64,000 nt of DNA from the NCBI RefSeq assembly GCF_006438965.1, contig NZ_RCZM01000002.1:372001-436000 (forward strand), read 5' to 3'. The DNA comes from Pedococcus bigeumensis (GTDB taxonomy: Bacteria > Actinomycetota > Actinomycetes > Actinomycetales > Dermatophilaceae). The position numbers and the translations under genes were made by a program. The notes beneath the pieces were generated by a model. That model saw nothing but the letters and a program-made list of their open reading frames with translations. It did no database searches and was not told where the DNA came from. Positions 568 to 61,681 of this stretch are shown piece after piece. The stretch's first letter is position 1, and each line of letters starts with the position of its first letter.

Positions 568-1544
568 GGCCAGCTCCCCTTTGCCCGGTCAGGGCGCGAG
601 GTCCGCTCGGCCCCCTGCGACTGTTCAGCCCGCGGTTCGAGGTCGTCGAGGAAGACCCGCTGCAGCATGTGCCAGTCGGCGGTGTGCGCCCCGATCGTGG
701 AGCCGAGAGCGTCCGCGCACTGCTGGGTCATCGCCACGGCCTTGGTCCGGGTCGTGCCCGACGACGGCACCTCGACCCGGTCGTGCCAGGTGATGACGAT
801 GCGGTGCTTCCAGCTCGACCCCTCGACGCGCTCGTAGTGGATCGATACCGGGTGCAGTGCGGCACCGGTGGCCAGCGACAGCGCAGCCGGACCGGCGGCC
901 ATCTTCGTGCGATGGCCGCACAGGTCCACCTCGACGCCCCGGTCGGTCAGGTCGCGGTCGGCCAGCAGCGGCATCAGCACCGGCTTGGTGAGGTGCCCGC
1001 GCAGCTGCGCGAAGACGTCCCCACCGCCGGTCAACGGCAGGATCGTCATGCCGAGCGACTCCCGGAAGGCGAGGAACTCGGCATACACCTCCTCAGGCTT
1101 GAGGCGCTCGGCGACGGTGACGACGGGGCCGATCGCCTTGGTGCCCCAGGCGCCGGCGAGGTCCCAGTTGCCGAGGTGACCGAGGAAGCACACCACGGGC
1201 CGCCCGGCGGCGAGCTCGGCGCGGACCGGTCCGTCGCCCACCACCCGGACCGACGCGGCGATCTGCTCCTGGGACCGGTCCGGGAGCCGGAAGGCTTCGC
1301 AGTAGTACCGCAGGTACGAACGCATCCCCTCACGCACCAGGGCGTCCAGGTCCCGGGATGACAGTTCGGGACGCACCTTGGCGTAGTTGCTGCGCAGCCG
1401 CTGCACCCCCTTGCCACCGCGGGCCACCGTGAGGTCGGCGATCTGCTCGAAGACGGTGTATGCCGTGCGCTCGGGCAGCCGTCGAACGGTGCCCCACCCG
1501 AGGCGGTAGCCGCTGACGGCGATGTGGTCGCCGAAGCCGGTCAC
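564..1544 (-). CDS. patA: PIM acyltransferase (PatA-like, LpxL/HtrB family)
   Basis: This 326-residue protein belongs to the lysophospholipid/LpxL acyltransferase family. The HX4D catalytic motif is visible as GHLGNWD (His about 123, Asp about 128). In mycobacteria the enzyme at this place in the operon (PatA) moves palmitate from acyl-CoA to the mannose of PIM1/PIM2 at the cytoplasmic membrane face. It lies between pgsA (13 bp gap) and pimA (4-bp overlap), so all three should be co-transcribed. The start ATG at 1544 follows the pgsA stop closely. Function is inferred from family plus conserved gene order; the acyl donor and acceptor are not visible in sequence. Confidence 0.9.
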   Translation of the reverse strand: MTGFGDHIAVSGYRLGWGTVRRLPERTAYTVFEQIADLTVARGGKGVQRLRSNYAKVRPELSSRDLDALVREGMRSYLRYYCEAFRLPDRSQEQIAASVRVVGDGPVRAELAAGRPVVCFLGHLGNWDLAGAWGTKAIGPVVTVAERLKPEEVYAEFLAFRESLGMTILPLTGGGDVFAQLRGHLTKPVLMPLLADRDLTDRGVEVDLCGHRTKMAAGPAALSLATGAALHPVSIHYERVEGSSWKHRIVITWHDRVEVPSSGTTRTKAVAMTQQCADALGSTIGAHTADWHMLQRVFLDDLEPRAEQSQGAERTSRPDRAKGSWP

Positions 1545-1557
1545 GACGCGAGCCCGC

Positions 1558-2172
1558 TCAGGAGGCTTCGACCAGGGCCTGCCGACGCACGAGCAGCATG
1601 CGCTGGAACACCGTGACGAGGCTGGCGACGGCGAGCAGGGCGAGAACGATGGTGAGGACGACCTCGGGCAGGCCCAGGCCCACCAGCCCGGTGATCACCA
1701 GGACGGCCACGAGGCGGTCGGCACGCTCGGCGATCCCGACGTTGGCGGTGAAGCCCAGTCCCTCGGCGCGGGCCTTGGCGTAGGACACGACGCTGCCGAG
1801 GATCAGGCAGGCCAGGGCCAGCCCGGCCATCAGGAAGTCGTCGCCGCGCCCGGCATACCAGAGCACGAGGCCCCCGAAGATGGCCGAGTCGCCGACCCGG
1901 TCGAGGGTCGAGTCGAGGTAGGCGCCCCACTTGCCGGACCGACCGGACATCCGCGCCATGACGCCGTCCACCGTGTCCGAGAAGACGAACAGGGTGATGA
2001 CGACGGTCCCCCAGAAGAACTCGTGCCGCGGGTAGAAGGCCAGTGCGCCGAAGCACACGCCGAGCGTGCCGACGATCGTCACGACGTCCGGGCTGATCCC
2101 CAGCTTGAGGAAGAGCCGGGCGACCGGGGTGAAGATCTTCGTGAAGAGGGCGCGTGCGTACTTGTTGAGCAT
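1558..2172 (-). CDS. pgsA: Phosphatidylinositol phosphate synthase (CDP-alcohol phosphotransferase)
   Basis: A 204-residue polytopic membrane enzyme that joins CDP-diacylglycerol with inositol 1-phosphate, the first step to PI and PIMs. The CDP-alcohol phosphotransferase signature is intact: D66-x2-D69-G70-x2-A73-R74-x8-G83-x3-D87-x3-D91 (TVDGVMARMSGRSGKWGAYL region). Translation was started at ATG 2172 (MLNKYARALF). An in-frame extension upstream to 2358 looks non-coding: proline/arginine-rich, and overlapping the DCC gene in another frame. It stands first in the pgsA-patA-pimA run, 8 bp after the DCC-family gene. Assignment to PIP synthase rather than another PgsA paralogue rests on gene order. 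Confidence 0.92.
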   Translation of the reverse strand: MLNKYARALFTKIFTPVARLFLKLGISPDVVTIVGTLGVCFGALAFYPRHEFFWGTVVITLFVFSDTVDGVMARMSGRSGKWGAYLDSTLDRVGDSAIFGGLVLWYAGRGDDFLMAGLALACLILGSVVSYAKARAEGLGFTANVGIAERADRLVAVLVITGLVGLGLPEVVLTIVLALLAVASLVTVFQRMLLVRRQALVEAS

Positions 2173-2180
2173 GGTGGTGG

Positions 2181-2668: not shown

Positions 2669-3157
2669 ATGAGGGGGCCGACGCGCTCACTGGGCCCGTA
2701 TGCCGCGCTGTGGCGGCTGGCTGTGGCGGCGGCCGTGGTGACCACGGTGTGCCTCGGCACCTGGGTCGGCAACGATGACTGGTGGCCGTTCGCGCCGATG
2801 TCGCAGTACGCCTTCTCGGTGCAGAACAACGGCATCATCAACTCGCTGACCATGGACGCCCTCACCGTCGACGGCGAGGTGGTGCGGGTGCCGTTGTCCA
2901 AGGAGAAGATCGGTATCGAGCGCGCGGAGATCGAGGGGCAGGCCCCCCGGATCATCGCGCACCCGGAGCTGCTCCAGGACATCGCCGTGCTCCACAGCCG
3001 GCTGCTCCCGCACGAGCCTGCGTACCAGGTCATCTACCTGCGCAACACCTCCACCCAGATCGGCACCGGTGCCGCCACGATCCACACCTTGGCCACGTGG
3101 CAGGTCCGCGATCCGCTGCGACCGCAGCCGAGCGGCATACCCGGCGGTGCGCCGTGA
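2669..3157 (+). CDS. Membrane-anchored protein of unknown function, paired with an HTTM protein
   Basis: A 162-residue protein with one N-terminal hydrophobic segment (about residues 14-32, WRLAVAAAVVTTVCLGTWVG), then a WWPFAPMSQYAF motif and a soluble domain that should face outside. The WPFxxMxxY motif recurs in small proteins encoded beside HTTM membrane proteins; that is recalled knowledge. An AGGGGAG stretch precedes ATG 2669 at very short spacing, so the start may lie slightly downstream. Its stop overlaps the GTG start of the next gene (GTGA), so the two are coupled. No catalytic motif could be recognised. Confidence 0.72.
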   Translation: MRGPTRSLGPYAALWRLAVAAAVVTTVCLGTWVGNDDWWPFAPMSQYAFSVQNNGIINSLTMDALTVDGEVVRVPLSKEKIGIERAEIEGQAPRIIAHPELLQDIAVLHSRLLPHEPAYQVIYLRNTSTQIGTGAATIHTLATWQVRDPLRPQPSGIPGGAP

Positions 3158-4041
3158 ACGCCGTTGAACGGTCTGTCGAGAACTTCCTGGCTCCCGAACT
3201 GCCGCTGGCCCGGGTCGCCTGGCTGCGCCGCTTCGTCTACGCCTTCGTCTGGCTCGACGTGCTGTGGATCGTGACCGACCCGATCCCGCACGGCGACGTG
3301 CCTCCGAGCCTGTACCGCGGGCTCGAGGTCCGCACCCTGCTGCACCTGCCTGCGCCGTCGCACGACTACGTGCGGGTGCTGCTGGCGGTGATCCTCGTGA
3401 GCTCCGCGGTGGCGTTCACCGGCCGGGTGCCGCGGCTGGCAGGGTGGGTCTGCGCCGTGGGGATGCTCGACTGGGTGAGCAACGCCTTCGCCTACTCCAA
3501 GGTCGACCACGACCACTTCGCGCTGATGGTGGCCCTGTTCGTGCTGCCGACCGCCGGACGGGCCCGGCTCAGCGACGTCGACGTGACGTCCCGCGCCGCC
3601 GGCTGGGCGATCCGGATGGTCCAGATCGGTGCCGTCTCGATCTACTTCCTGTCGGCCAACGCGAAGATGCGGTTCGGTGGCTGGGGCTGGGCAAACGGCG
3701 CCACCCTCACCTGGGCCCTGAGCCGGCGCCCGAACAGCATCGGCCCGTGGGTGGCGTCGCACCCTGCGCTGGTGCACGCACTGCAGTGGGTGGCGCTCGT
3801 GGCCGAGTTCAGCTCACCGGTCGTGCTGTGGCTGAGGGGCAAGGCGTTGTATGCCGCGCTCCTCTTCTGGGCGGGCTTCCACCTGACGACCTACGTCATG
3901 CTGAAGATCCACTTCCTGCCGCTCGTGGTCTGCCTGCTCAGCTTTCTGCCGCTGGAGCGGCTGCCCCACCCGGCCACGCTGCGACGAGTCGTGACCGCAC
4001 GTCCTCGAGCAGCATCGGAAGCGCCTTCGTCTGCCCGATGA
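3154..4041 (+). CDS. HTTM-like polytopic membrane protein
   Basis: A 295-residue integral membrane protein with about six hydrophobic segments (for example RVLLAVILVSSAVAF and WAGFHLTTYVMLKIHFLP). Its layout fits the HTTM group, the membrane domain related to vitamin-K-dependent gamma-carboxylase. Visible hallmarks are a SANAKMRFGGWGWANG stretch in the middle and a late His-rich helix (FHLTTYVMLKIHFLP). It overlaps the previous gene by 4 bp and shares 104 bp tail-to-tail with the HIT gene on the other strand (3938-4041). The role is unknown; a redox or modification partnership with the nearby DCC protein is inferred only from proximity. Confidence 0.75.
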   Translation: MNAVERSVENFLAPELPLARVAWLRRFVYAFVWLDVLWIVTDPIPHGDVPPSLYRGLEVRTLLHLPAPSHDYVRVLLAVILVSSAVAFTGRVPRLAGWVCAVGMLDWVSNAFAYSKVDHDHFALMVALFVLPTAGRARLSDVDVTSRAAGWAIRMVQIGAVSIYFLSANAKMRFGGWGWANGATLTWALSRRPNSIGPWVASHPALVHALQWVALVAEFSSPVVLWLRGKALYAALLFWAGFHLTTYVMLKIHFLPLVVCLLSFLPLERLPHPATLRRVVTARPRAASEAPSSAR

Positions 4042-4507: not shown

Positions 4508-4513
4508 CTGCCG

Positions 4514-6515: not shown

Positions 6516-9473
<2,958 letters not shown>

Positions 9474-10359: not shown

Positions 10360-11115
10360 ATGGACCTCCTGATCGTCAACCTTGCCGACCGCCCGGACCT
10401 CGTCGACACGATGTGGGACTTCGAGGGCCTCTGGCCGGTCTTCATGCAGCAGGACCCCGTGTCCGACCTGTTCTACTCGCGCGCCACCTCGACGTACGCG
10501 GCATACACCTTGGTGGCCTTTGCCGCGGACGACATGGACCACCCGGTGGCACGGTCCTGCTCGATCCCGTTCGCCATGGGTGCGGCGCTCGGTCGGGACG
10601 CGCTGCCGGACGACGGCTGGGACGGGGTGATCCGGTGGGCCTGGCTGGACGAGCAGATCGGCCGCGCACCCACCCACCTGTCCGCCATCGAGGTCGCCAT
10701 CCGGCCCGACCTGCGTGGGACCGGGCTCGCATCGGTGATGCTGGAAGCCAAGCGGCAGAACGCGATCCGACTCGGGTTCAAGGACCTGTACGCCCCGGTG
10801 CGTCCGAGTCTCAAGACCGCCGAGCCGCACACGCCGATGCGGGAGTATGCCGCGCGGACGCGTGACGACGGGCTGCCCGAAGATCCCTGGTTGCGGCTGC
10901 ACGTCAGGGCCGGTGGGACGATCGTCAAGGTCTGCCCGCGCGCCATGACCATGTCCGGGACCTTGTCCGAGTGGCGCTCCTGGACCGGCCAGCCGTTCGA
11001 CGCAACCGGCGACGTGGTGGTCCCGTTCGCCCTCAACCCCGTGCACTGCAGCGTCGAGCACGACCACGCCGTCTACGTCGAGCCCGGGGTCTGGGTGCAC
11101 CACCGGCTCGGCTGA
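10360..11115 (+). CDS. GNAT-like N-acetyltransferase domain protein
   Basis: A 251-residue protein whose middle contains THLSAIEVAIRPDLRGTGLA followed by SVMLEAKRQNA. This resembles the acetyl-CoA-binding R/Q-x-x-G-x-G/A loop and following helix of GNAT enzymes (RGTGLAS around residue 125). The flanking regions are not recognisable, so the acceptor is unknown. TACCGT at 10347-10352 ends 7 nt before ATG 10360, so the mRNA may be leaderless. It is divergent from the GPP34 gene and followed 8 bp later by another acetyltransferase, suggesting a two-gene unit. Confidence 0.65.
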   Translation: MDLLIVNLADRPDLVDTMWDFEGLWPVFMQQDPVSDLFYSRATSTYAAYTLVAFAADDMDHPVARSCSIPFAMGAALGRDALPDDGWDGVIRWAWLDEQIGRAPTHLSAIEVAIRPDLRGTGLASVMLEAKRQNAIRLGFKDLYAPVRPSLKTAEPHTPMREYAARTRDDGLPEDPWLRLHVRAGGTIVKVCPRAMTMSGTLSEWRSWTGQPFDATGDVVVPFALNPVHCSVEHDHAVYVEPGVWVHHRLG

Positions 11116-12993: not shown

Positions 12994-13845
12994 TCAGGGA
13001 CGCGCGAGGGTCAAGGTCAGGTGCGGCTTGGCCGGGTCCTTGACAGAGCGCAGCCCGGCTACGATCACCGGGCTCTCGTCGTCGACCACGAGCTCCACCG
13101 TGCTCGGCAGGAAGACCGGCTTGGCAAACCACAGGTGCGAGCTCGATGCGTCGTTTCCGCGCGGCTCGAGCGCGGCCAGCGTGCGAGCGGCGGTCCACAT
13201 GCCGTGGGCGATGGCTCGCGGAAACCCCATCGCCTTGGCGCTCAACGCGTGCAGGTGGATCGGGTTCACGTCACCCGACAGCGCGGCATACGCCCGACCC
13301 TGTCCCTCGGGGACTCGGATGACCCCAGCTGGCGGTCCCTCAGGCAACGGCGGGGCCTGGTCACCCGGTGACGCGTCGACGTCGCCGGGTCCGCGTCGCA
13401 GGTAGGTGCTGCGCCCGTCCCAGACGCGCACGCCGTCGACCTCCACCTCGGTGACGAGGTCCACGAGACGGCCCTTGACGTGCGGTCGCAGTCCCTCGGC
13501 CCGCACCGTGACGTCCAGCCGGTCGTCGGCCGTGAGGCGGCGGTGGACGGTGATCTGGTTCTCCAGGTGCACCAGTCCGGGCAGCGGCAGCGGGAAGGAC
13601 CGGTCGGCCATCAGTGCCACCTGGAGCGGGAAGCCGAGGACGTGGGGGTAGGTGTGCGGCAGGATGTCGCCGCCCGTGAACCCACAGACCCGCTGGTAGG
13701 CGAGGAGGTGCCCGCGGTCCACGACCACTCCTTCGCGGCGCCAGGCGGTGGCTGGCAGGTCACCGCGCCGACCGCGCTGGGTGAGCGCCGCCTTGACGAA
13801 CAGCGGTGCCAGCGAAGGCGACTCGCTCAGCGTCTGGGTCGCCAT
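12994..13845 (-). CDS. MaoC-family (R)-specific enoyl/hydroxyacyl dehydratase, HtdX-like
   Basis: A 283-residue double-hotdog dehydratase. The hydratase-2 motif is YAALSGDVNPIHLHALSAKA followed by GFPRAIAHGMW, with the catalytic Asp and His in the GDVNPIH segment. The N-terminal hotdog is degenerate. It follows the FabG4-like reductase by 1 bp and the thiolase before that, the same trio as mycobacterial htdX-fabG4 next to fadA2. It should act on (3R)-hydroxyacyl thioesters in fatty-acid elongation or breakdown. Start ATG 13845 was chosen because it directly follows the fabG stop at 13847. Direction of flux is not visible in sequence. Confidence 0.88.
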   Translation of the reverse strand: MATQTLSESPSLAPLFVKAALTQRGRRGDLPATAWRREGVVVDRGHLLAYQRVCGFTGGDILPHTYPHVLGFPLQVALMADRSFPLPLPGLVHLENQITVHRRLTADDRLDVTVRAEGLRPHVKGRLVDLVTEVEVDGVRVWDGRSTYLRRGPGDVDASPGDQAPPLPEGPPAGVIRVPEGQGRAYAALSGDVNPIHLHALSAKAMGFPRAIAHGMWTAARTLAALEPRGNDASSSHLWFAKPVFLPSTVELVVDDESPVIVAGLRSVKDPAKPHLTLTLARP

Positions 13846-13846: not shown

Positions 13847-15190
13847 TCAGGCACCGAGCAGGCTCTGGCCGCAGACCCGGAGGACGTTGCCCGTGACACC
13901 GGCGTTGGCGTCCTGGCTGAACCAGGCGATCGTCTCCGCCACGTCCACGGGCAGCCCTCCCTGGCTGAGCGAGTTGAGCAGGCGGCCGACCTCGCGGGTC
14001 GCGAACGGCACCTTGGCCGTCATCTCGGTCTCGATGAAGCCGGGTGCCACCGCGTTGACGGTGATGCCGCGGGCGACGAGAGCCGCGTCGGCTGACAGGG
14101 CGTCGACCAGCCCGATCACCCCGGCCTTGGAGGCGCCGTAGTTGGTCTGGCCCCGGTTGCCGGCGATGCCGGCGATCGAGGAGACCAGAACCACGTGTCC
14201 ACCGTCCCGCACACCGCCGTCTGCGAGGAGGACCTCGTTCATCCGCAGGATCGACCCGAGGTTGACGTCGAGCACGGATGCCCACCGCCCCTCGTCCATG
14301 TTGGCGAGCAGCTTGTCGCGGGTGATGCCCGCGTTGTGCACGACGATGTCGAGACCACCGTGCCGGCTGGTCGCGTGGTCGAGGATCCGCTGCCCGGCGT
14401 CGGCCGCCGTGACGTCGAGCTGGAAGGCAGTCCCACCGACCCGGTTGGCGGTCCTGGCCAGCGAGTCGCCCGCCGCCGGGATGTCGACGCACACCACCGT
14501 CGCGCCGTCGCGCGCCAGGACGTCGGCGATCGACGCACCGATCCCGCGCGCGGCACCGGTGACCACGGCCACCTTCCCGGCCAGTGGCTTCGCCCAGTCG
14601 GCTGGTTCCGCGGGCGTCCCTGCGCCCACACGGATGACCTGCCCGTCCACGTATGCCGCGCGGCCGGACAGCAGGAACCGCACCGCGGCGTCGACGTTGG
14701 CGTCCGCTCCGTCGTCGACGAGCACGAGGTTGGCGGTGGCCCCGGCCCGCAGCTCCTTGCCGATCGACCGCGTGATGCCCTCCAAGGCGCGACGAGTGGC
14801 TGCCTGCGCAAATCCGTTGGCGCCCTTGGGGTTACGGCCCACGATGATGATCCTGCCGCTGGACCGTAGCCCCTTGAGGGCAGGAGCCACGAGGGCACGC
14901 AGGGCATCGAGCTCTCCGAGTACGGCGGCCTCGGTCAGGTCGGCCACGACCGCGGCCACCCGTTCGCCTGCGGCCACCTCAGTCACCGTGTCGACGCCCT
15001 CGAGCTTGAGCAGGTCGCCGACCCGCTCCGCCACGGGAGCTTCACCAAGGCCGCCGACGAGGACTGGGCCCTCGATGAGTGGTGCGCCCACGGCATACCT
15101 GCGCAGCCTTGCCGGGCGAGGCAGGCCGAGCTGCGCGGCGAGCTTGGCGCCCACTGCGCTGTTGACGATGCCCGCGTAGGTGCCGGCCAT
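13847..15190 (-). CDS. fabG4: FabG4-type 3-oxoacyl-thioester reductase with extra N-terminal domain
   Basis: A 447-residue SDR, nearly twice the usual 250. The last 240 residues form the active reductase: TGAARGIG cofactor loop, HNAG, SSIAG with the catalytic Ser, and NYGASKAG with the Tyr and Lys. The first 200 residues form a degenerate flavodoxin/Rossmann-like half without cofactor motif, as in mycobacterial FabG4 (HMwFabG), which uses NADH and long-chain CoA substrates. The ATG at 15190 overlaps the thiolase stop by one base (TGATG), so the two are coupled. The regulator is probably the TetR encoded divergently at 16592. Confidence 0.92.
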   Translation of the reverse strand: MAGTYAGIVNSAVGAKLAAQLGLPRPARLRRYAVGAPLIEGPVLVGGLGEAPVAERVGDLLKLEGVDTVTEVAAGERVAAVVADLTEAAVLGELDALRALVAPALKGLRSSGRIIIVGRNPKGANGFAQAATRRALEGITRSIGKELRAGATANLVLVDDGADANVDAAVRFLLSGRAAYVDGQVIRVGAGTPAEPADWAKPLAGKVAVVTGAARGIGASIADVLARDGATVVCVDIPAAGDSLARTANRVGGTAFQLDVTAADAGQRILDHATSRHGGLDIVVHNAGITRDKLLANMDEGRWASVLDVNLGSILRMNEVLLADGGVRDGGHVVLVSSIAGIAGNRGQTNYGASKAGVIGLVDALSADAALVARGITVNAVAPGFIETEMTAKVPFATREVGRLLNSLSQGGLPVDVAETIAWFSQDANAGVTGNVLRVCGQSLLGA

Positions 15191-36605: not shown

Positions 36606-36669
36606 CGCCCGAGCGTATGCCGTGCCGCTACCGGTGTGCCGCGGGATTTCCGCGCCTAGATTGGGCCCC

Positions 36670-46946: not shown

Positions 46947-49214
46947 TCAGCCGACGATGCGGTCGAGGGTCAGCGGCAGGTCGGTGACCCGTCTTCCGGT
47001 GGCGTGCCTGATCGCGTTGGCGACAGCGGCACCGACTCCGACGATGCCCACCTCCCCCGCACCGAGGATGCCAAGCGGCATCTGGGGGTCGGGGTCGTCG
47101 AGCGTGTGCACGTCCAGGTGGGGCACGTCCGCGTGCACGGGCACGTGGTACTCGGCAAGGCTCGGGTTCATGATCCGGGCGGTGCGGGTGTCGATCAGGG
47201 TCTCCTCCCCCATCGCCATCCCCAGGCCCATCACGATGCCGCCGCGCAGCTGGCTGTGCGTCGTCTTCGGATTGACCACCCGACCCACGTCAAAGACGCT
47301 GAGCCACCGACGAATTCGCAGCTCTCCGGTGTCGGCGTCGACCCGGACCTCGCAGTAGTGGGCACCGGTTGCTGCCTTCATCCACCGCCTGCTGTCCATC
47401 ACCATCTTGGACAGGAACCGCACCTGCCCCCACATGGCCTTCGGGCCGGTGTCGGCACCTACCTCGACCGTGAGCGACTGCTCCCCCGCGCGGGTCAGGA
47501 CCTCGGCTGGGTCTGAGCCGTCCGGCATACCTGACTTGGACGCCAGCGCGTCCAGCCGCTTCCGCATCGCCTGGCAGGCCTTCTCGATCGAGGCGGCCAG
47601 GCTCGCGGTCTGGCCGGAGCCACCCGCGCCCGGGCCCATGGGCAGGTCGGAGTCGCCGTAGAGCGCGCTGACCCGCTCCAGCGGCACGCCCAGGCAGTCG
47701 GCGACCATCTGGCCCACGACCGTGGCCGTCCCCATGCCCATCTCGTGGAAGGCGCACGCCAGGGTGGCACTCCCCGTGGCGTCGACGGTGAGCTGGACGT
47801 TGGCGACGAACTCCCACGCCGGGTGGATCGCTGCCGCCACGCCCCAGCCCACGAGGTCCTTGCCGTCTCGGGTGCCGGGCGCGGGACGGTCGGCCCAGCC
47901 GAAGAGGTCGCGCCCCTGTTCGAGTGCCTGGGCCAGCCTGCGGTGGGAGTACCGCGTGCCGTGGACGGGGCTCTTGTCGACCGGCTGGTTGAGCAGTCGC
48001 AGCTCGACCGGGTCGAGACCCAGCTCGATGGCGAGCTCGTCCACGGCCGACTCCACGGCGAAGCTGCCCTGTGCTTCGCCGGGTGCCCGCATCGCGGTGT
48101 TGGTCATCAGGTCGAGCTCGACGATCTTCTGTTCGGCCAGGATCGTCGCGGCGTCGTAGAGGTCGAGGCTGCAGGAGATGATCTGGTCCGCCTCGCCCCC
48201 GACCCTGCCCTTGCGTGACGTGGCCTGGTGGATCAGGGCCTCCATCTGCCCTGTGCGGGAGGCGCCGATCGCCACCCGCTGCCTGGTCGGGGTGCGGCCA
48301 CCCACCGTCCGGTAGACGCCCTCGCGGGTCAGCGCGAGCCGCACCGGCCGCTGCGCCACCTGGGCAGCCATGCAGGTGATCAGCGTGGCGGCCCACACCT
48401 TTGACTTGCCGCCGAACCCCCCACCGACGTACTTCGAGACGACGTGCACGTCACTGGCCGGCACGTCGAACCGTTTCGCAAGGAACTTCTGGGTCCAGTC
48501 GATGTTCTGGCAGCCCTCGTAGACCGTCAGCTTCTTGCCGTCCCAGACGGCGGTCGTGGCATGTGGTTCGAGGGCGTTGTGGTTGTGCTGCGGGGTGGTG
48601 AAGCTGAGATCCACCTGCACCGGCGCCTTCGTGTATGCCGCGCGGGCATCACCGCGCTTACCTCCCGTCGGGGGTAGCACCGGCATCGACCTCACCGCCT
48701 TGGCGGTGGGCAGCTCTGCCTCGAAATCGGCTGTGGGCGTGATGGTTTCGTAGTCGACCCGGACGAGGGAGGCGGCGTACTGGGCCGACTCGAGGGTCTC
48801 GGCCACGACCGCGGCCACCGGCTGGCCGTCGACGTGGACCTCGTCGGTGTTGAGGAACGCGATCGAGCTCCCTGCCGCCATCGTCGACAGGTCCATCGGG
48901 TTCATCCGGGTCGGCGGTGGCGTGAGACGCGGCGCATTGAGGTGGGTGAGCACGAGCACCACGCCGGGGTGCGCCTCAGCCTGGGCGACGTCGATGGACC
49001 TGATCCGGCCGCGGGCGATCGGGGCGTGGACGAGGACGGCGTGGGTCAGCCCCGGGATGGGGTACTCCGCCGAGAACCGTGCGGTGCCAGTCGTCTTCGC
49101 AAGCCCGTCAACCCGGTCGACCGCTCTGCCGATGGCGGGGCCGGTCCGGCCCGGGCCCGCGTCAGCCTCTGGCGGAGCAGATGGCCGCGCGGTCCGTTCG
49201 GGTGCCAGCGTCAT
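46947..49214 (-). CDS. Molybdenum hydroxylase large subunit (xanthine dehydrogenase family, PaoC-like)
   Basis: A 755-residue molybdopterin subunit. Cofactor motifs: VGGGFGGKSKVWAATLITC, MRAPGEAQGSFAVESAVDEL, GPGAGGSGQTASLA, and the C-terminal GAGEVGIVGVGAAVANAIRH with the catalytic Glu. It is last of three genes in the order 2Fe-2S, FAD, Mo subunit, the same as E. coli paoABC (periplasmic aldehyde oxidase). Length and the bound 4Fe-4S in the FAD subunit fit that group. No Tat signal is apparent here, so a cytosolic location is likely. Overlaps the FAD-subunit gene by 4 bp. No dedicated maturation gene lies nearby. Confidence 0.9.
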   Translation of the reverse strand: MTLAPERTARPSAPPEADAGPGRTGPAIGRAVDRVDGLAKTTGTARFSAEYPIPGLTHAVLVHAPIARGRIRSIDVAQAEAHPGVVLVLTHLNAPRLTPPPTRMNPMDLSTMAAGSSIAFLNTDEVHVDGQPVAAVVAETLESAQYAASLVRVDYETITPTADFEAELPTAKAVRSMPVLPPTGGKRGDARAAYTKAPVQVDLSFTTPQHNHNALEPHATTAVWDGKKLTVYEGCQNIDWTQKFLAKRFDVPASDVHVVSKYVGGGFGGKSKVWAATLITCMAAQVAQRPVRLALTREGVYRTVGGRTPTRQRVAIGASRTGQMEALIHQATSRKGRVGGEADQIISCSLDLYDAATILAEQKIVELDLMTNTAMRAPGEAQGSFAVESAVDELAIELGLDPVELRLLNQPVDKSPVHGTRYSHRRLAQALEQGRDLFGWADRPAPGTRDGKDLVGWGVAAAIHPAWEFVANVQLTVDATGSATLACAFHEMGMGTATVVGQMVADCLGVPLERVSALYGDSDLPMGPGAGGSGQTASLAASIEKACQAMRKRLDALASKSGMPDGSDPAEVLTRAGEQSLTVEVGADTGPKAMWGQVRFLSKMVMDSRRWMKAATGAHYCEVRVDADTGELRIRRWLSVFDVGRVVNPKTTHSQLRGGIVMGLGMAMGEETLIDTRTARIMNPSLAEYHVPVHADVPHLDVHTLDDPDPQMPLGILGAGEVGIVGVGAAVANAIRHATGRRVTDLPLTLDRIVG

Positions 49215-50206
49215 GCCGCGCCTCCTTCGTCGCGCAGTCGCCTGAGCGTGGCCGTGATCGTGCGGACTGCCAGCTCGATCTTGAACTCGGTGCTCGGTGT
49301 ACCGACCGCCTGGGCCAGCTCGGCACGAGCAGCGGCAGCGAACTCTTCGTCGGTGGCCGGCCGTCCCGCCAGGTACTGCTCGAGAGTCGTTGCCCGCCAG
49401 GGCTTGTGGGCCACTCCCCCGAGCGCCACGCGCGCCTGCGAGACGGTGCCGTTGGTGACCTCCAGGGCGGCTGCCACGGAGACCAGCGCAAAGGCGTAGG
49501 AGGCGCGGTCGCGCACCTTGCGGTAGCGAGAGCTGGCGGCCAACGGTTCGGCGGGGAGGGTGACCGCCGTGACGAGCTCGTCCGCGGCAAGGGTGGTGTC
49601 AAGGTGTGGCGACTCCCCCGGGAGCCGGTGGAAGTCCTGGATGGGGATCCTCCGCGTGCCTGTTCGGCTGGCCACCTCGACCTCGGCGTCCAGCATGACC
49701 AGGGCGACGGCCAGGTCGGAAGGATGGACCGCGACGCAGTGCTCGCTGGCTCCGAGGATGGCGCCCATCCGGTTGTGACCCGCGACGGCACCGCAGCCCG
49801 ACCCCAGGTCACGCTTGTTGCAGGCCGCGGCGGCGTCGTAGAAATAGAGACACCGGGTGCGCTGCAGGAGGTTTCCGCCGACCGTCGCCATGTTGCGGAT
49901 CTGGCCAGAGGCGCCCATCAGGACCGCCTGCGCGAGCACCGGATAGCGTTGGCGCACAGCCAGGTTGGCTGCCAGGTCGGTGTTCCGGACAGCGGCGCCG
50001 ATCCGCAGGCCACCCGCCGGTGTCTCGGTGATCTCGGCCAGCGGGAGGCGGGTGACGTCGACCAGGACCTCCGGCGTCTCGATCCCCTCACGCATCAGGT
50101 CCACCAGGTTCGTCCCGCCACCGAGGAACTTCGCACCCGGCAGGTCCACGATCGCAGCGAGGGCCTCGTCGATGCTGGCCGGCACGGCATACGAGATCGG
50201 CTTCAT
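49211..50206 (-). CDS. Molybdenum hydroxylase FAD subunit (PaoB-like)
   Basis: A 331-residue FAD-binding subunit. FAD loops: AKFLGGGTNLVDLMREG (near 26-42) and ATVGGNLLQRTRCLYF. Four cysteines (119, 129, 138, 157) in the region TRCLYFYDAAAACNKRD and SGCGA match the extra 4Fe-4S cluster of PaoB-type subunits, absent from ordinary xanthine dehydrogenases. Its ATG overlaps the iron-sulfur gene (ATGA at 50203-50206). It passes electrons from the Mo centre via 2Fe-2S clusters to FAD and then an acceptor. Confidence 0.9.
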   Translation of the reverse strand: MKPISYAVPASIDEALAAIVDLPGAKFLGGGTNLVDLMREGIETPEVLVDVTRLPLAEITETPAGGLRIGAAVRNTDLAANLAVRQRYPVLAQAVLMGASGQIRNMATVGGNLLQRTRCLYFYDAAAACNKRDLGSGCGAVAGHNRMGAILGASEHCVAVHPSDLAVALVMLDAEVEVASRTGTRRIPIQDFHRLPGESPHLDTTLAADELVTAVTLPAEPLAASSRYRKVRDRASYAFALVSVAAALEVTNGTVSQARVALGGVAHKPWRATTLEQYLAGRPATDEEFAAAARAELAQAVGTPSTEFKIELAVRTITATLRRLRDEGGAA

Positions 50207-50957: not shown

Positions 50958-53051
50958 GTGACCACCACTTTCGGCTTCCTCCACCGGTGGTCGGTCGCCG
51001 CCACCCTGGTGCTCATCGGCGTCTTCGTGCTCGGGGCAACCGCCGTGCGCTTCGCTCCGCCCGGGTCGTCGGTGGCTGTCTGGTGGCCGGCGGCAGGCCT
51101 CGGAGTGGCGTTCCTGCTCGCGACCGGCCCCGACCGGCGGCGCGCCCTGATCGTGGTCGCCGGCGTGGTGGTGTTCAGCGGCGCAGCGAACCTGTACGGC
51201 GGCAGGCCGCCGTTCACGGCCGCGTGCTTCGGCGTGGCCAACGCCACCGAGGCCCTGGTCGTCTGGTGGCTGATGACCCGCGGAGGGCGTCGCCCGCGCC
51301 TTGCGTCGCTGGAGGACCTCGGAAGGCTGCTGGTCGCCACCCTCGCGGGAGCCGTCGTCTTCGGGGTGCTCGCCGGTCTCACGGTGGCGTTCACCCTCCA
51401 CGGGACCTTCGTGCCCACGGCATACACCGTGGCGGCCTCCCACGCCGCCGCTGTCCTCACCATCGCGCCGCTGGGTGTGGCCGTCTCCACACGCAGGTCC
51501 GAACGCCGCCGCCTGGAGGACCTGTTCCAGTGGCTGGGACTCCTGGCTGTCGCCGTCTGGGTGTTCTGGTCCACCAACGGGCTGCCGCTCGCGTTCCTGC
51601 CCCTGCCCCTGCTCGTGTGGGGCGCGACCCGGCAGAGCCTGCGCACGCTCGCGGTACAGCTGTCCGGCCTGGGTGTGCTGGTCGTGGTCCTCACCAGCGA
51701 CGGTGGCGGACCCTTCGCCGCCGCGGGGCGATCAGGGGCCGTCGAGCCAGAGACCGTCGGGGCACTGACCCAGGCCTTCCTGGTCACAGCTGCGGTCACC
51801 GGCCTCGCGCTCGCAGTCGCGTCCACGCAGCGTCGGGACGCCCTCGCGGAGCTGTTCAGAGAGGCCGCCTTCACCCAGACAGTGCTGAACTCGGCCCCCG
51901 CGACGGCGATCATCGGCACCGACTCCTCCGGCACGATCACCTTGTTCAACCGGGGGGCGACGAACCTCCTGGGCTTCCCGCCCGAGGACGTGGTGGGCTC
52001 GATGAACTGGGTCGAGCTGCACGATCCCGCCGAGGTGGCTTGCCGGGCCGAGGAGCTGGGCCTGGATCCCGGCCCCGCAGTCCTCGTCCACGTGCTCGAG
52101 GACGCGGAGCGTACCGAGACCCGGGACTGGACCTGGGTCACCCGGGACGGACGCCACATGGTGGTCGACCTGACGACCAGCGCGATCGTCGACGAGGCAG
52201 GTGCGGTCACTGGTTACATCGGGGTCGCCGAGGACGTCACGGAGCGGCGCGTTGCCGCCGACGCCGTGCAGGCAGCCCTCGACCGCGAACGTCGGGCGGT
52301 CGAGGAGCTCACCGCGCTCGACCGGGCCAAGACCGACTTCCTGTCCTCCGTCAGCCATGAGCTGCGGACACCCTTGGCCAGCGTCCTCGGCTACACCGAG
52401 ATGCTGGAGGACGGCGCTGCCGGCGAGCTCTCGCAGAAGCAGCTCGACCTCGTGTCGCGCATCGATCGCAACGGGCGGCGCCTGCTCGCCCTGATCGAGG
52501 ACCTGTTGCTCAACTCACGCATCGAGTCCGGGCAGCTCCACCTGGCGCGCCGCCCGTGCGACCTCGCGGAGATCGTCGACCACGCCTGGGAGTCCACGGG
52601 CGCCCTCGTCCAGAAGCGCGAGCTCCACCTGCGTCGTGAGGTGTCGGGTGAACCCGTCCCGTTGGACGGTGACGCCACCGCCCTCGAGCGCGTCGTCACG
52701 AACCTGTTGTCCAACGCGGTGAAGTTCACCCCCGACGGGGGCGTCGTGACGCTGGCCCTCGGCAGGACCGAGGACGGCAACGGAGCAGGAATGGCTCGAC
52801 TGGTGGTGAGCGACAGCGGCTACGGGATCTCCGAGGAGGACCAACACCAGGTGTTCCGCCGCTTCTTCCGGTCCTCCGATGCCACCGACCGCGCCGTCCA
52901 GGGCACGGGACTGGGCCTGTCCATCGTCCAGGCGATCGTCGAGGGGCACGACGGCACCATCGACGTGGAGTCCACCCTGGGCGAGGGATCGACCTTCACC
53001 GTCCTCCTGCCACTGGCCACAGTCGCCGCACCGAGGTCGGGAACCGGCTGA
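50958..53051 (+). CDS. Orphan sensor histidine kinase with MASE1 and PAS domains
   Basis: About 697 residues. An N-terminal MASE1 membrane domain (about eight helices, starting LHRWSVAATLVLIG and the VAVWWPAAGLGVAFLL motif) spans about 1-290. A PAS domain (LNSAPATAIIGTDSSGTITL) follows at about 310-430, then HisKA with the phosphorylated His in SVSHELRTPLASVLGYTEML, and HATPase (NLLSNAVKFTPDGG; GTGLGLSIVQAI). No response regulator is adjacent. GTG 50958 was chosen as start: an in-frame ATG at 50871 gives an arginine/alanine-rich head with poor third-position GC. The signal is unknown. Confidence 0.9.
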   Translation: MTTTFGFLHRWSVAATLVLIGVFVLGATAVRFAPPGSSVAVWWPAAGLGVAFLLATGPDRRRALIVVAGVVVFSGAANLYGGRPPFTAACFGVANATEALVVWWLMTRGGRRPRLASLEDLGRLLVATLAGAVVFGVLAGLTVAFTLHGTFVPTAYTVAASHAAAVLTIAPLGVAVSTRRSERRRLEDLFQWLGLLAVAVWVFWSTNGLPLAFLPLPLLVWGATRQSLRTLAVQLSGLGVLVVVLTSDGGGPFAAAGRSGAVEPETVGALTQAFLVTAAVTGLALAVASTQRRDALAELFREAAFTQTVLNSAPATAIIGTDSSGTITLFNRGATNLLGFPPEDVVGSMNWVELHDPAEVACRAEELGLDPGPAVLVHVLEDAERTETRDWTWVTRDGRHMVVDLTTSAIVDEAGAVTGYIGVAEDVTERRVAADAVQAALDRERRAVEELTALDRAKTDFLSSVSHELRTPLASVLGYTEMLEDGAAGELSQKQLDLVSRIDRNGRRLLALIEDLLLNSRIESGQLHLARRPCDLAEIVDHAWESTGALVQKRELHLRREVSGEPVPLDGDATALERVVTNLLSNAVKFTPDGGVVTLALGRTEDGNGAGMARLVVSDSGYGISEEDQHQVFRRFFRSSDATDRAVQGTGLGLSIVQAIVEGHDGTIDVESTLGEGSTFTVLLPLATVAAPRSGTG

Positions 53052-53122: not shown

Positions 53123-53338
53123 ATGAACACATCGTTTCTCGCCGTGGTGGTGGCCGTCATCGGGGCCTTCGTGATCAGTGCAGTCTGGTATGCCGCGTGG
53201 GGACGTTCGCTGCCCCGGTTGCACCCGGCATACGCCGAGGGGGCGGCACGGCCGCCAGCGGCCCTGGCAGCGATCCACCTGGGCGACTGGCTGCTCAAGC
53301 TGCTCGCGATCTGCTCAGTCCTGTCAGTCTGGCCCTAG
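53123..53338 (+). CDS. Short membrane protein (DUF1761-like)
   Basis: 71 codons with two hydrophobic segments (FLAVVVAVIGAFVISAVWYA and ALAAIHLGDWLLKLLAICSV), typical of the start of DUF1761 proteins but only half as long. Both flanking GTATGCCG motifs (53189, 53227) fall inside it, encoding Trp-Tyr-Ala-Ala and Pro-Ala-Tyr. No RBS is obvious. It precedes the DUF1801 gene by 9 bp, so the two may be one operon. Function unknown. Confidence 0.62.
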   Translation: MNTSFLAVVVAVIGAFVISAVWYAAWGRSLPRLHPAYAEGAARPPAALAAIHLGDWLLKLLAICSVLSVWP

Positions 53339-56989: not shown

Positions 56990-57673
56990 ATGGAGCACGG
57001 CCCCGCGGCAACGGTCCGCGTCTTCCTCGTCGACGACCACGAGATCGTCCGGCGAGGTCTGCGCGAGCTCCTCGAGACGGTGGCCGAGTTCGAGGTCGTG
57101 GGTGAGGCCGGGACCGCAGCCGAGGCGATGGCCCGGATCCCAGCGGCCCGTCCCGACGTGGCCATCTTCGACGCCCGCCTCCCCGATGGGTCGGGGATCG
57201 ACGTATGCCGCGAAATCCGCTCCCAGCAGCCGGCCACCAGGGCGCTCATCCTCACCTCGTTCGACGACGAGCGGGCCCTGTCCAGCGCCATCCTCGCGGG
57301 AGCGGCCGGCTACCTGCTCAAGGACATCAAGGGCAACGGACTGATCGAGGCGATCAAGGCCGTGGCTGCCGGCCAGCAGCTGATCGGACCGGCCGACGTC
57401 GAGCGGGCTCGGCGCAGCTGGGCGCGGGAGACCCAGGCCGACCCTCGGCTGCAGCGGCTCTCACCGCAGGAGCAGCGTGTCCTCGACCATGTCGCCCAGG
57501 GACTGACGAACCGCGAGATCGGCGTGGCCCTGTCGCTGGCCGAGAAGACGGTCAAGAACTATGTGACCGCCGTGCTGGGCAAGCTCGGCATGGAGAGCCG
57601 GACCCAGGCAGCGGTGTTCGCCGTCACCCACTCGGTGACGGCCAAGCCGGCGCGGCCCGCACCCTCGTCGTGA
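56990..57673 (+). CDS. devR: DevR/DosR-like response regulator
   Basis: A 227-residue NarL/LuxR-type regulator. Receiver: VRVFLVDDHEIVRRGLRELL, phospho-Asp in AIFDARLPDGSGI (about 61), Thr/Ser switch in ALILTSFDDE and Lys in YLLKDIKG. DNA-binding HTH: RLSPQEQRVLDHVAQGLTNR, then LAEKTVKNYVTAVLGKLGM. The AEKTVKNYV and LGMESRTQAAVFA segments closely match mycobacterial DevR, the dormancy regulator. It lies 131 bp after devS with its own box. It should bind the six GGGACC boxes in the window. Confidence 0.93.
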   Translation: MEHGPAATVRVFLVDDHEIVRRGLRELLETVAEFEVVGEAGTAAEAMARIPAARPDVAIFDARLPDGSGIDVCREIRSQQPATRALILTSFDDERALSSAILAGAAGYLLKDIKGNGLIEAIKAVAAGQQLIGPADVERARRSWARETQADPRLQRLSPQEQRVLDHVAQGLTNREIGVALSLAEKTVKNYVTAVLGKLGMESRTQAAVFAVTHSVTAKPARPAPSS

Positions 57674-57743: not shown

Positions 57744-58520
57744 TCAGTTCAGCTTGCGGGTGCCCTCGGGCAGTGCGCCACCGGCATACACGTCCTCGGC
57801 GAGCGAGGCCAAGGCGGTGAGGGCGACGTTCTGGCTCCACGGGCCGTAGGAGACCCGGGCGACACCCAGCCGCTGGGCGTCCGCGAGGCTCAATGACCCG
57901 GGTATGCCGATCAGGTTCACCTTCTGCGGACCGAGTGCCTCGACGAGTGCGGTCACGGTGGGCTCGTCCAGCATGCCGGGGCAGAAGAAGGTCGCGGCTC
58001 CAGCGCCGAGATAGGCGCTGCCCCGCTCGATCGCGTCAGCCAGGACGGCGGCCGGGTCCTTGTCACCGGCCTTGAGGAACGCGTCGGTACGGGCGTTGAG
58101 GACGAACGGCACGCCGGCCTTCTCCCCTGCCGCGATGGCCGCCTCGACGGCTCGCACCGCGTCCGGCAACGGCTTGAGCTGGTCCTCGAGGTTTGCGCCG
58201 ACGATGCCGACGTCGATGGCCCTGCTGATCGTCTCCCCCGCGTTGCCGTAGCCGGCTTCGAGGTCGGCACTCACCGGCAGGTCCACCGCCGCGGCGATCC
58301 GGCCGACGGCCTCGATCATCAGGTCCCGCGGGATCTGCTCACCGTCGGGGTAGCCGTATGCCGCGGCGATCGAGTGGCTGGCCGTGGCCAGTGCCTTCGT
58401 CCCCGGGGTGTCCGCCACGACCTTGGCCGTGATGACGTCCCAGACGTTGACGACGAGGAGCAGCTCCGGGTCCTGGTGGAGGCGGAGCAGCTCGTGGGCC
58501 TTGTTGACAGTGGTGGTCAT
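57744..58520 (-). CDS. Isocitrate lyase/PEP mutase family protein
   Basis: A 258-residue TIM-barrel protein: LLVVNVWDVITAKVVADTPG, ADLEAGYGNAGETIS, VGANLEDQLKPLPDAV, FVLNARTDAFLKAG. The key catalytic motif of phosphoenolpyruvate mutase (EDK-x5-NS) and the KKCGH motif of isocitrate lyase are absent, so it belongs to the related carboxyvinyl/oxaloacetate-hydrolase-like group of unknown substrate. Its ATG overlaps the DUF2237 gene end (ATGA at 58517-58520). First gene of the minus-strand block going towards devR. Confidence 0.85.
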   Translation of the reverse strand: MTTTVNKAHELLRLHQDPELLLVVNVWDVITAKVVADTPGTKALATASHSIAAAYGYPDGEQIPRDLMIEAVGRIAAAVDLPVSADLEAGYGNAGETISRAIDVGIVGANLEDQLKPLPDAVRAVEAAIAAGEKAGVPFVLNARTDAFLKAGDKDPAAVLADAIERGSAYLGAGAATFFCPGMLDEPTVTALVEALGPQKVNLIGIPGSLSLADAQRLGVARVSYGPWSQNVALTALASLAEDVYAGGALPEGTRKLN

Positions 58521-60323: not shown

Positions 60324-60377
60324 GGTGTGCGCCCTTCCCCGATGTGTCCCTCGCGGGAAGGTCTATGTCTTGGTAGC

Positions 60378-61115
60378 TCATGGCGCATCCCGCTTCAGTC
60401 TCAGTCTACCGGCGACGATGTCCCTGGCGACATCGCTGACGGGACGGCCTTCGGCGTAGGCATGACCCCGGAAGCGGGCCATGGCCTCGTCGATGGTCAC
60501 ACCCAGGTCGACCATCACCATGCCCTGTGCCTGGTAGACCTCGAGTCGATAGGCCAGTGCGTCGTCGAGGTCGGTGATCGTCCGGCCGTCCGGAGCGCCG
60601 TCCTGCCCGTCCACCAGCAGTCCCATCGCCACCTCGGCGAAGGTGACCGCCTGGGTGAGGCCATCGGCGGTGAGCGACCCGGGCTCGACGCGGTAGACAT
60701 CCAGCGCCCCGACCCGAGCAGCCCCGACCTGCAGGGGGAACGCGAAGACGGCCTGCACGCCATGGTCACAGGCGGCGCGGGCATAGCCGGGCCAGCGACG
60801 CATGCCGTGGGTTGTCAGGTCCGGCTCCAGCACGGGGCGCCGGGAGGTGTAGGCGTCGATGCATGGACCCTCGCCGAGGGAGAACTGCAGCTCCTCGAGC
60901 CTCCTGCTGGCTGCGCTCGACGCTGCGACCGTGCCGCCTCCCTGGTGGTCCTCGGTCAGCAGGCTGACTCCGACACCCGTCGCGGGCAGTGAGCGGGTCA
61001 GTGCCGTGCAGAGCCGTTCCAGACGACCGATGGTTCCGGGCGCGCCGTGCGGGTCCGTCGGCTCGTCGTCGATGAGCTGGTTGGCATGGGCGAGCCGTCC
61101 CTGCGAGGCGGTCAT
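60378..61115 (-). CDS. GAF-ANTAR transcription antiterminator (second copy)
   Basis: A 245-residue relative of the next gene: GAF domain with FSLGEGPCIDAYTSRRPVLE and FAFPLQVGAARVGALDVYRV, then ANTAR (YRLEVYQAQGMVMVDLGVTI ... GRPVSDVARDIV). The two share the pattern GPC near the start of the GAF core. Its ATG at 61115 overlaps the stop of the acyltransferase (ATGA), so it is coupled to it. Possibly it senses a membrane or redox signal linked to lipid remodelling. Confidence 0.92.
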   Translation of the reverse strand: MTASQGRLAHANQLIDDEPTDPHGAPGTIGRLERLCTALTRSLPATGVGVSLLTEDHQGGGTVAASSAASRRLEELQFSLGEGPCIDAYTSRRPVLEPDLTTHGMRRWPGYARAACDHGVQAVFAFPLQVGAARVGALDVYRVEPGSLTADGLTQAVTFAEVAMGLLVDGQDGAPDGRTITDLDDALAYRLEVYQAQGMVMVDLGVTIDEAMARFRGHAYAEGRPVSDVARDIVAGRLRLKRDAP

Positions 61116-61681
61116 CGCGACGCCCGCTCCTCTTCGCGCAGGCGGGGCTCGGTCCGCCGCTCTGGGTGTATGCCGTGCTTGTCGCGGTAGAACTCACGCA
61201 CCTGGTCCATGTCCGCGACGACATCTGGTGTGGCCGAGATCGTGGGACCGAATCCCGCTGTGCGAGTAGGGCCGTCGATGAAGGCAAGCGCAATGGGAAG
61301 CTTCGCTGACCGCGCGATGCGCCAGAAGCCGGACTTCCAGTACTCACCCTTCGTGCGGGTGCCCTCCGCGGCGAGAATGAGCAGGAACGGCTCACCGCTG
61401 CGCGCCTCACGCACGAGCTCTCGCACCACGGCACTGGGATTGTCACGATCGAGCGGCAGTCCGCCGAGCCGGTGCAGGAGCCACCCGAGCGGCCCGCGGA
61501 ACAGCTCCTTCTTGATGAGGACCCGCGGGGTCACCCCTCCGCGCCACATGATGAGGAGCATCATGACGAAGTCCCAGTTGGAGGTGTGCGGCGCCCCGAC
61601 AAGCACGCCGGTCCTGGGCACCTGACCGACAGCGGTCCAGCGACTGGCCCGCAACGCCAGACTGGCGAGCCGACTCCTCAT
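61112..61681 (-). CDS. 1-acyl-glycerol-3-phosphate-type acyltransferase
   Basis: A 189-residue PlsC-family protein. HX4D motif GAPHTSNWDFVMML (His near residue 32), the FRGPLG helix, and the AAEGTRTKGEYWKSGF motif in place of FPEGTRS. Such small acyltransferases add a second fatty acid to lysophosphatidate or related lipids. No transmembrane segment is obvious. It starts at ATG 61681, convergent-free, and leads the acyltransferase-ANTAR-ANTAR run. Substrate specificity unclear. Confidence 0.87.
   Translation of the reverse strand: MRSRLASLALRASRWTAVGQVPRTGVLVGAPHTSNWDFVMMLLIMWRGGVTPRVLIKKELFRGPLGWLLHRLGGLPLDRDNPSAVVRELVREARSGEPFLLILAAEGTRTKGEYWKSGFWRIARSAKLPIALAFIDGPTRTAGFGPTISATPDVVADMDQVREFYRDKHGIHPERRTEPRLREEERASR

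Follow-up and report, generated by a model that had tools for sequence, protein, structure and literature searches.

A strand-spaced octamer of the Dermatophilaceae as a candidate uptake-type self-DNA signal

A stretch of 64,000 nucleotides from the genome of Pedococcus bigeumensis (NCBI RefSeq assembly GCF_006438965.1, contig NZ_RCZM01000002.1, positions 372,001 to 436,000), referred to here as the window, carries 43 exact copies of the octamer GTATGCCG, 22 on the plus strand and 21 on the minus strand. The octamer is strongly enriched throughout the genome, is conserved in place among species of the genus, and is spaced in a way that depends on its orientation. We consider GTATGCCG a candidate uptake-type self-DNA signal of the Dermatophilaceae and assign this reading a probability of about one half. 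The orientation-resolved spacing is a new result. To our knowledge, no earlier uptake-type signal is known in Actinomycetota, and among the leading titles and open-licence papers returned by a literature search, neither the motif nor an actinobacterial uptake signal was reported.

Copies of GTATGCCG in the window and in the genome

The number of copies in the window far exceeds chance, as 100 dinucleotide shuffles gave a mean of 0.95 and a maximum of 4, and an order-3 Markov model gives an expectation of 1.8. A preliminary description of the window had reported 43 copies in a 22/21 split, and exact counting returned the same figures. The invariant eighth base that it noted also holds, with GTATGCC and GTATGCCG each found 43 times, and its 30 extended copies were recovered as 20 ending in CG and 10 ending in TG. 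The span of 1080 to 61175 that it gave is correct at its end (last copy at 61168-61175) but off by one base at its start (first copy at 1079-1086).

In the whole genome (G000; 4,223,823 bases in 13 contigs), GTATGCCG occurs 2,551 times, 1264 on the plus strand and 1287 on the minus strand, and is 34-fold commoner than the reversed word, which occurs 74 times (35 and 39). A sample of 464 kb, consisting of 20 stretches of contig 1 and the window, contains 298 copies compared to 13.9 expected under an order-3 model with the motif unmasked, 2.7 under an order-3 model with the motif masked, and 5.7 under a masked order-4 model, an enrichment of 21- to 110-fold. The genome-wide count against expectation, which the preliminary description had proposed as a check, is therefore not near chance. 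In the window's genus, the octamer is preceded by G in 55% of copies and followed by a pyrimidine in 77% and then by G in 74%, with G at offset +12 in 61%; the genus consensus is GGTATGCCGYG. Forms with one mismatch are in sum 1.5-1.7 times as frequent as expected and show no depletion.

Crude gene models for the G000 sample show GCC after 151 of 287 TAT codons and after 155 of 2,358 TAC codons, and G.TAT.GCC.G is found 116 times compared to 15 for the synonymous G.TAC.GCC.G. The enrichment is thus confined to the TAT spelling, and codon-pair bias, which had been named as an explanation that could refute a signal, fails on its own and was rejected. The copies had been said to sit in all reading frames. 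All frames are indeed used, although not evenly, since 116 of the 231 coding copies in the sample by the same gene models belong to a single sense frame, Tyr-Ala, and a further 59 to a single antisense frame, Ala-Tyr. Across four genomes from the genus (1,160 copies in 1.74 Mb), 535 copies are sense, 378 antisense, 231 intergenic, and 16 placed across a gene boundary, with 459 of the coding copies in the Tyr-Ala frame and 264 in the Ala-Tyr frame. The intergenic share of 231 in 1,160 is found even though 10.7% of the sampled DNA lies outside called genes. Sense copies are slightly nearer the gene start and antisense copies slightly later, a weak trend (Kolmogorov-Smirnov p = 0.05).

Copies of GTATGCCG stay at the same sites as species diverge. 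When four species from the genus were compared in aligned pieces of at least 400 bases with a mean identity of 77-81%, 234 of 346 motif sites (68%) were identical in the other species compared to 231 of 1,357 shifted control windows (17%), in counts that take both directions of each species pair, so that the events are not independent. These results support the earlier proposal that selection acts on the DNA rather than on the protein.

One inverted pair of copies, at 6519-6554, had been described as a hairpin, and folding bore this out with a 14-bp stem and an 8-nt loop (-31.1 kcal/mol, z -4.77). The hairpin lies immediately 5' of a gene labelled threonyl-tRNA synthetase-like from Pfam (4514-6499, minus strand) and ahead of a peroxidase-family gene (7218-9473, plus strand). 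An ATG within the motif opens a frame of 983 amino acids at 6522-9473, which might mislead start-codon calling; start codons miscalled in this manner have been reported for the DNA uptake sequence (DUS) of Neisseria (PMC2346458). The convergent pair at 53188/53226 folded no better than shuffled sequences (z 0.65). The copies in the window are as follows.

1079..1086, minus strand, GTATGCCG copy, exact match
1458..1465, plus strand, GTATGCCG copy, exact match
1851..1858, minus strand, GTATGCCG copy, exact match
2698..2705, plus strand, GTATGCCG copy, exact match
3133..3140, minus strand, GTATGCCG copy, exact match
3849..3856, plus strand, GTATGCCG copy, exact match
6519..6554, no strand, inverted motif pair forming the hairpin, from folding
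6520..6527, plus strand, GTATGCCG copy, left arm of the hairpin, exact match and fold
6546..6553, minus strand, GTATGCCG copy, right arm of the hairpin, exact match and fold
10499..10506, minus strand, GTATGCCG copy, exact match
10845..10852, plus strand, GTATGCCG copy, exact match
13284..13291, minus strand, GTATGCCG copy, exact match
14651..14658, plus strand, GTATGCCG copy, exact match
15091..15098, minus strand, GTATGCCG copy, exact match
16795..16802, plus strand, GTATGCCG copy, exact match
17618..17625, minus strand, GTATGCCG copy, exact match
18174..18181, plus strand, GTATGCCG copy, exact match
20285..20292, minus strand, GTATGCCG copy, exact match
22523..22530, minus strand, GTATGCCG copy, exact match
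24117..24124, plus strand, GTATGCCG copy, exact match
26279..26286, plus strand, GTATGCCG copy, convergent with 26350, exact match
26350..26357, minus strand, GTATGCCG copy, convergent with 26279, exact match
28290..28297, minus strand, GTATGCCG copy, exact match
28644..28651, plus strand, GTATGCCG copy, exact match
32592..32599, minus strand, GTATGCCG copy, exact match
34140..34147, plus strand, GTATGCCG copy, exact match
35933..35940, minus strand, GTATGCCG copy, exact match
36615..36622, plus strand, GTATGCCG copy, exact match
37630..37637, minus strand, GTATGCCG copy, exact match
42026..42033, plus strand, GTATGCCG copy, exact match
42598..42605, minus strand, GTATGCCG copy, exact match
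43859..43866, plus strand, GTATGCCG copy, exact match
44935..44942, plus strand, GTATGCCG copy, exact match
47523..47530, minus strand, GTATGCCG copy, exact match
48633..48640, plus strand, GTATGCCG copy, exact match
50185..50192, minus strand, GTATGCCG copy, exact match
51418..51425, minus strand, GTATGCCG copy, exact match
53188..53195, plus strand, GTATGCCG copy, convergent with 53226, exact match
53226..53233, minus strand, GTATGCCG copy, convergent with 53188, exact match
57203..57210, plus strand, GTATGCCG copy, exact match
57782..57789, minus strand, GTATGCCG copy, exact match
57902..57909, plus strand, GTATGCCG copy, exact match
58356..58363, plus strand, GTATGCCG copy, exact match
61168..61175, plus strand, GTATGCCG copy, exact match

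Orientation and spacing

In the four genomes of the genus, 745 pairs of neighbouring copies have opposite orientations and 330 share one, with p-values for alternation in the four genomes between 7e-14 and 3.5e-5. The ratio of observed to expected same-orientation pairs is 0.07 below 40 bp, 0.22-0.32 at 40-450 bp, and 0.5-0.6 at 600-1000 bp, and it returns to 1 at around 1.6 kb, being 1.05 in the 1.6-2 kb range. For divergent pairs (minus, then plus) the ratio varies about 1 (0.73 to 1.48), while for convergent pairs (plus, then minus) it reaches 4.1 below 40 bp, with 35 observed compared to 8.5 expected, and 1.3-1.6 at 40-450 bp. Copies in the same orientation thus repel each other up to about 1.5 kb and copies in opposite orientation do not, and as a result neighbours alternate. 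When counted per 20 kb, the copies on each strand are sub-Poisson (variance/mean 0.27-0.87) and the counts on the two strands co-vary (correlation 0.37-0.68); total counts fall under the Poisson level in three genomes and over it in G003 (variance/mean 1.30).

Control words did not reproduce this pattern. In the G000 sample, the opposite fraction of the motif is 0.708 (196/277), whereas 180 control octamers with 150-450 copies each, words overlapping the motif being excluded, gave 0.489 with a standard deviation of 0.050 and a maximum of 0.660. TACGCC, the usual spelling of Tyr-Ala, shows the reverse trend (71 opposite compared to 106 same). Outside the genus the alternation is weaker, with 127 opposite and 77 same neighbours in 17 named loci of at least six copies each; the relative G014 gave 41 opposite and 15 same.

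Replichore polarity was not found in G003 and G004, two single-contig genomes of the genus, in which a scan of 20 stretches of 20 kb each gave best half/half splits of 54% and 52%, both within chance (p = 0.70 for G004 and 0.99 for G003). Together with the genome-wide balance of 1264 to 1287, this agrees with the claim in the preliminary description that the orientation is balanced and the motif not polar. The exclusion among copies on the same strand and the independence of copies on opposite strands suggest a reader that works on a single strand or in a single direction and whose reach is about 1-1.5 kb.

Relatives, dialects and candidate genes

A survey of 58 genomes, the window's included, was performed with at least 150 copies per Mb as the definition of motif-rich. 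All 11 genomes of the window's genus and 12 of 25 other Dermatophilaceae genera (one genome each) are motif-rich, three further genera have weak densities of 44-81 per Mb, and the remaining ten have 5-37 per Mb; in other families of the order, none of 22 genomes is motif-rich. The family of the carriers is probably Dermatophilaceae in the GTDB sense, judging from relatives named by a search with a ComEC alignment, namely Phycicoccus, Knoellia, Intrasporangium, Humibacillus, Terrabacter, Ornithinimicrobium, Arsenicicoccus, Tetrasphaera, Janibacter, and Dermacoccus. Among 80 named loci, mostly of about 20 kb each, that were scanned for GTATGCCG, dense ones were found in Phycicoccus elongatus (20 copies), Ornithinimicrobium cavernae (15), Humibacillus xanthopallidus (15 and 13), Terrabacter Root85 (11), Knoellia remsis (11 in 13.8 kb), and Intrasporangium oryzae (10), and Arsenicicoccus is a further named carrier. 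No copies were present in the loci of Phycicoccus jejuensis, Janibacter indicus, Intrasporangium flavum, and Dermacoccus abyssi, and loci from outside the family had 0 to 3. On a ComEC tree of 51 rows, a gene tree that may differ from the species tree, the motif-rich label changes about eight times, and at least three of these changes are forced by well-supported branches.

The motif occurs in dialects, with the strict word, GTATGNCG, and CGTATGCCGCTGRGC as the respective forms. The strict dialect is found in the window's genus, G017, G027, G031, G032, P. elongatus, and Humibacillus, in each of which GTATGACG reaches at most 28 per Mb. Position 6 is relaxed in G013, G014, G021, and Arsenicicoccus and more weakly in Ornithinimicrobium (GTATGACG at 89-409 per Mb, several of these samples spanning merely 19-67 kb), and G025 has the longer consensus CGTATGCCGCTGRGC, derived from 20 copies. 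No strong replacement word turned up in seven motif-poor members of the family, of which 44-64 kb each was scanned. Motif-poor G034 has a mild excess of CGTACGCC (47 compared to 7.9 expected; L085-L087, L017) and of CGATGCCG (44 compared to 11.3), both of which resemble the motif and may reflect composition.

Genes for natural transformation are widespread in these bacteria. ComEC is present in all 41 genomes searched, DprA in all 22, and T2SSE-type ATPase matches in all 36 (weak in G016), and a gene that appears ComEA-like from its position lies ahead of comEC in 22 of 24 named loci. The Tad-type pilin of G000, so named from its position beside tadA-like genes, has relatives in 29 of 33 genomes, both outgroups included, and is missing from motif-poor G016, G023, and G024 and from motif-rich G027. 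PilM, a marker of type IVa pili, was matched in 4 of 41 genomes (two in the family, one match partial), and these pili were rejected as a candidate. The competence genes to which the preliminary description had pointed are thus present in G000, as ComEC, DprA, and Tad-type pilus genes, but are not specific to motif carriers. ComEC, T2SSE ATPases, the AdnAB-like pairs described below, one Tad-type pilin, and DprA all fail to split motif-rich from motif-poor genomes, and the presence of any of them was rejected as the cause. No gene near the comEC locus or near one Tad locus was linked to the motif.

Two pilus or competence genes appear interrupted in some genomes. In motif-rich G005, comEC lies in two frames (G005:C1:1517076-1517881), either a true break or a sequencing error. 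The tadA-like pilus ATPase gene is split in G004 (L269, L270; pieces joining at codon 233, about 71 kb apart), G009 (L271, L272; codons 1-213 and 233-405, about 79 kb apart), and G017 (L273; codons 1-207 and 193-405, about 11 kb apart); in G027 the frame ends near codon 209 (L274) and the remainder was not found. In the first three genomes the right-hand piece adjoins a gene that by eye resembles a serine recombinase. Phages elsewhere insert into competence genes, which the split tadA recalls; nothing was found in the literature on elements inserted in tadA. The stretch L047 (G004:C1:2380001-2400000), between the tadA pieces of G004, has 3 copies of the motif compared to 8 to 17 in the other 19 stretches, as expected for recently acquired DNA.

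Enzymes that process DNA ends were also compared. RecC is present in 12 of the 41 genomes searched, and within the window's genus in one of 11; RecBCD-Chi was rejected because RecC is missing from the other 10. A pair of PDDEXK-domain matches 3-4 kb apart, probably AdnAB, occurs in 36 of 36 family genomes, motif-rich and motif-poor alike. About 12 kb from this pair in G000, a third PDDEXK protein, a RecB-like nuclease (L439; G000:C8:74301-75900), has a close relative in 24 of 36 family genomes (54-100% identity; 268-residue query, E below 1e-90), the other 12 having distant paralogues, except G021, which has none. By genus, it is present in 11 of 13 motif-rich, 1 of 3 weak (G026), and 2 of 10 motif-poor cases, and none of the other genes compared leans with the motif. 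The exceptions are motif-rich G021 and G035, which lack it, and motif-poor G011 and G033, which have it; in the supported clade of G013, G014, and G020, motif-poor G020 is the member without it. The association came to light while several families were being compared. With exceptions of both kinds and counts that ignore ancestry, we regard this nuclease as a lead, not a cause.

What the motif may do

An uptake-type signal is the preferred reading because dialects exist, the enrichment is strong, and polarity is lacking. A receptor or a DNA-processing protein within the transformation machinery (the Tad/Flp pilus, ComEA, ComEC, or a downstream component) would favour motif-bearing DNA, fragments with the motif would recombine into relatives more often, and the motif would spread and be kept by biased exchange plus selection. 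Such a signal would work one way or on one strand, for example by acting on the single-stranded DNA that ComEC lets in, or by determining the direction of entry. There would be a separate series on each strand, with a copy every 2-4 kb or so, and another copy on the same strand within about 1.5 kb would add little. It is from the spacing that we infer a one-direction or one-strand signal. A one-way signal in two independent per-strand series is conceivable at slightly less than even odds, and it would be either the first uptake signal for the entering strand (or entry direction) or a Chi-like signal without polarity, recognised by a helicase-nuclease of actinobacteria. In both cases the functional unit of this genome-wide signal would, tentatively, be a single strand; our literature search yielded no description of uptake sequences with such a unit. 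We know of no other class of motif with the same set of abundance, dialects, conservation, frame use, inverted pairs, intergenic excess, and balanced strands.

The likeness to uptake signals claimed in the preliminary description stands for several features shared with DUS and with the uptake signal sequence (USS); no receptor emerged among the gene families compared, and the same-orientation exclusion is a feature that the USS and DUS samples lack. DUS of Neisseriaceae, whose receptor is ComP, are like GTATGCCG abundant, with clade dialects on a fixed core, hairpin-forming inverted pairs, intergenic copies, and relatives without such a word (PMC3630211 and PMC1939737). The sequence ATGCCG is common to GTATGCCG and the DUS 12-mer ATGCCGTCTGAA, probably by chance. 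Unlike DUS hosts, the hosts of GTATGCCG are high-GC actinobacteria that have Tad-type pilus genes, PilM being matched in just 4 of 41 genomes, and we know of no ComP counterpart in them. USS of Pasteurellaceae share with GTATGCCG thousands of copies, many of them in genes, inverted pairs, and no chromosomal orientation bias; 1,471 copies are reported in H. influenzae (PMC1939737) and another motif in one sub-clade (PMC2346458). In most Pasteurellaceae tested, one USS orientation is reported nearer the 5' end of genes and the other nearer the 3' end (PMC2346458), a gene-end bias that is weak for GTATGCCG.

Several observations weigh against the uptake reading. As yardsticks for spacing, we used viral-contig stretches with Haemophilus-type or Neisseria-type uptake words, samples that are small and phage-linked and serve as a guide, not as proof. 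With neighbours at least 60 bp apart and loci of fewer than four copies excluded, the USS word gave 97 same and 87 opposite neighbours (36 loci kept of 74 de-duplicated from 120) and the DUS word 46 same and 45 opposite (18 loci kept of 22 de-duplicated from 44), in contrast to 329 same and 691 opposite for GTATGCCG counted likewise. Pairs closer than 60 bp are nearly all opposite for all three words (7/7, 27/28, and 54/55), the search for the DUS sample having itself selected close opposite pairs. Since neither sample alternates, the spacing is no known property of uptake signals, and USS uptake has been reported to be orientation-independent (PMC1939737). The repulsion between same-orientation copies, with none between opposite ones, argues that GTATGCCG would not work equally in either orientation. 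Alternation is also lacking in G013 (24 opposite, 22 same), in G035 (1 opposite, 6 same), and, with the relaxed motif, in G021 (18 opposite, 17 same). Furthermore, ComEC, DprA, and Tad-type genes are present in most motif-poor relatives too, and no receptor emerged among ComEC, PilM, the T2SSE ATPases, one Tad-type pilin, and DprA. The RecB-like nuclease fits a role in DNA-end processing at least as well, and its lean with the motif takes weight from the uptake reading and gives it to a Chi-like rival. If incoming or broken DNA were trimmed by a nuclease that the motif restrains, the association would fit.

The Chi-like rival, a stop-and-recombine signal for a one-way helicase-nuclease such as AdnAB, perhaps with the RecB-like nuclease, seems unlikely to us, though still worth serious weight. 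An enzyme starting from a break would read one orientation, and each strand would need its own regular series, which accounts for the strand independence and for the redundancy of same-strand copies over about 1.5 kb. Chi, like GTATGCCG, is an asymmetric octamer apparently read in one orientation, the AdnAB-like pair is found throughout the family, and the RecB-like nuclease favours motif-rich genera (11/13 compared to 2/10, uncorrected for ancestry and for the several families tried). However, the AdnAB-like pair is no less present in motif-poor genomes, the exceptions to the RecB-like nuclease run both ways, and RecC is rare. Known Chi is polarised, so that consecutive sites lie on a common strand more often than by chance (PMC8022716), whereas neighbours of GTATGCCG alternate and lack replication polarity. 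The same lack of replichore polarity (54% and 52% splits) sets GTATGCCG apart from another kind of oriented motif. This kind comprises the FtsK-orienting polar sequences (KOPS) and other FtsK-type polar octamers, which are non-palindromic, as is GTATGCCG. The HIP1 octamer of cyanobacteria is very abundant genome-wide and is palindromic, unlike GTATGCCG with its orientation effects.

The preliminary description had named a nucleoid-protein site and a methylase site as alternatives. It is improbable that the copies are evenly spaced, strand-oriented anchors for a nucleoid or chromosome-organising protein. The sub-Poisson per-strand counts and the favoured convergent pairs at 40 to 450 bp (124 compared to 77) would suit such anchors, but the totals in G003 are no more even than chance, and about eight label changes on the ComEC tree (at least three forced), together with dialects, would be unusual for a house-keeping site. 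A self-mark of a defence or modification system, acting through methylation or a directional translocating nuclease, we hold to be more improbable still. Directional translocating enzymes do read asymmetric sites, and the inserted-element stretch L047 is poor in copies (3 in 20 kb); yet restriction sites are usually depleted, not enriched, and neither positional conservation nor dialects would be expected. Mutation or codon-pair bias without function has next to no probability: copies do gather in the Tyr-Ala and Ala-Tyr frames, but this rival is contradicted by the excess of one-mismatch forms, the TAT/TAC comparison, and the conservation in place, and the intergenic copies also stand against it.

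Uptake signals are known from Pasteurellaceae and Neisseriaceae (PMC7811141). If the uptake reading of GTATGCCG is true, the Dermatophilaceae would offer an independent case in high-GC actinobacteria, in which dialects and repeated changes of state would provide a comparative test of signal evolution and the strand-by-strand spacing a quantitative clue to the mechanism. Some polyphosphate-accumulating bacteria from sewage plants belong to this family (PMC9123174), and it may be speculated that adding the motif to DNA might ease the transformation of such strains.

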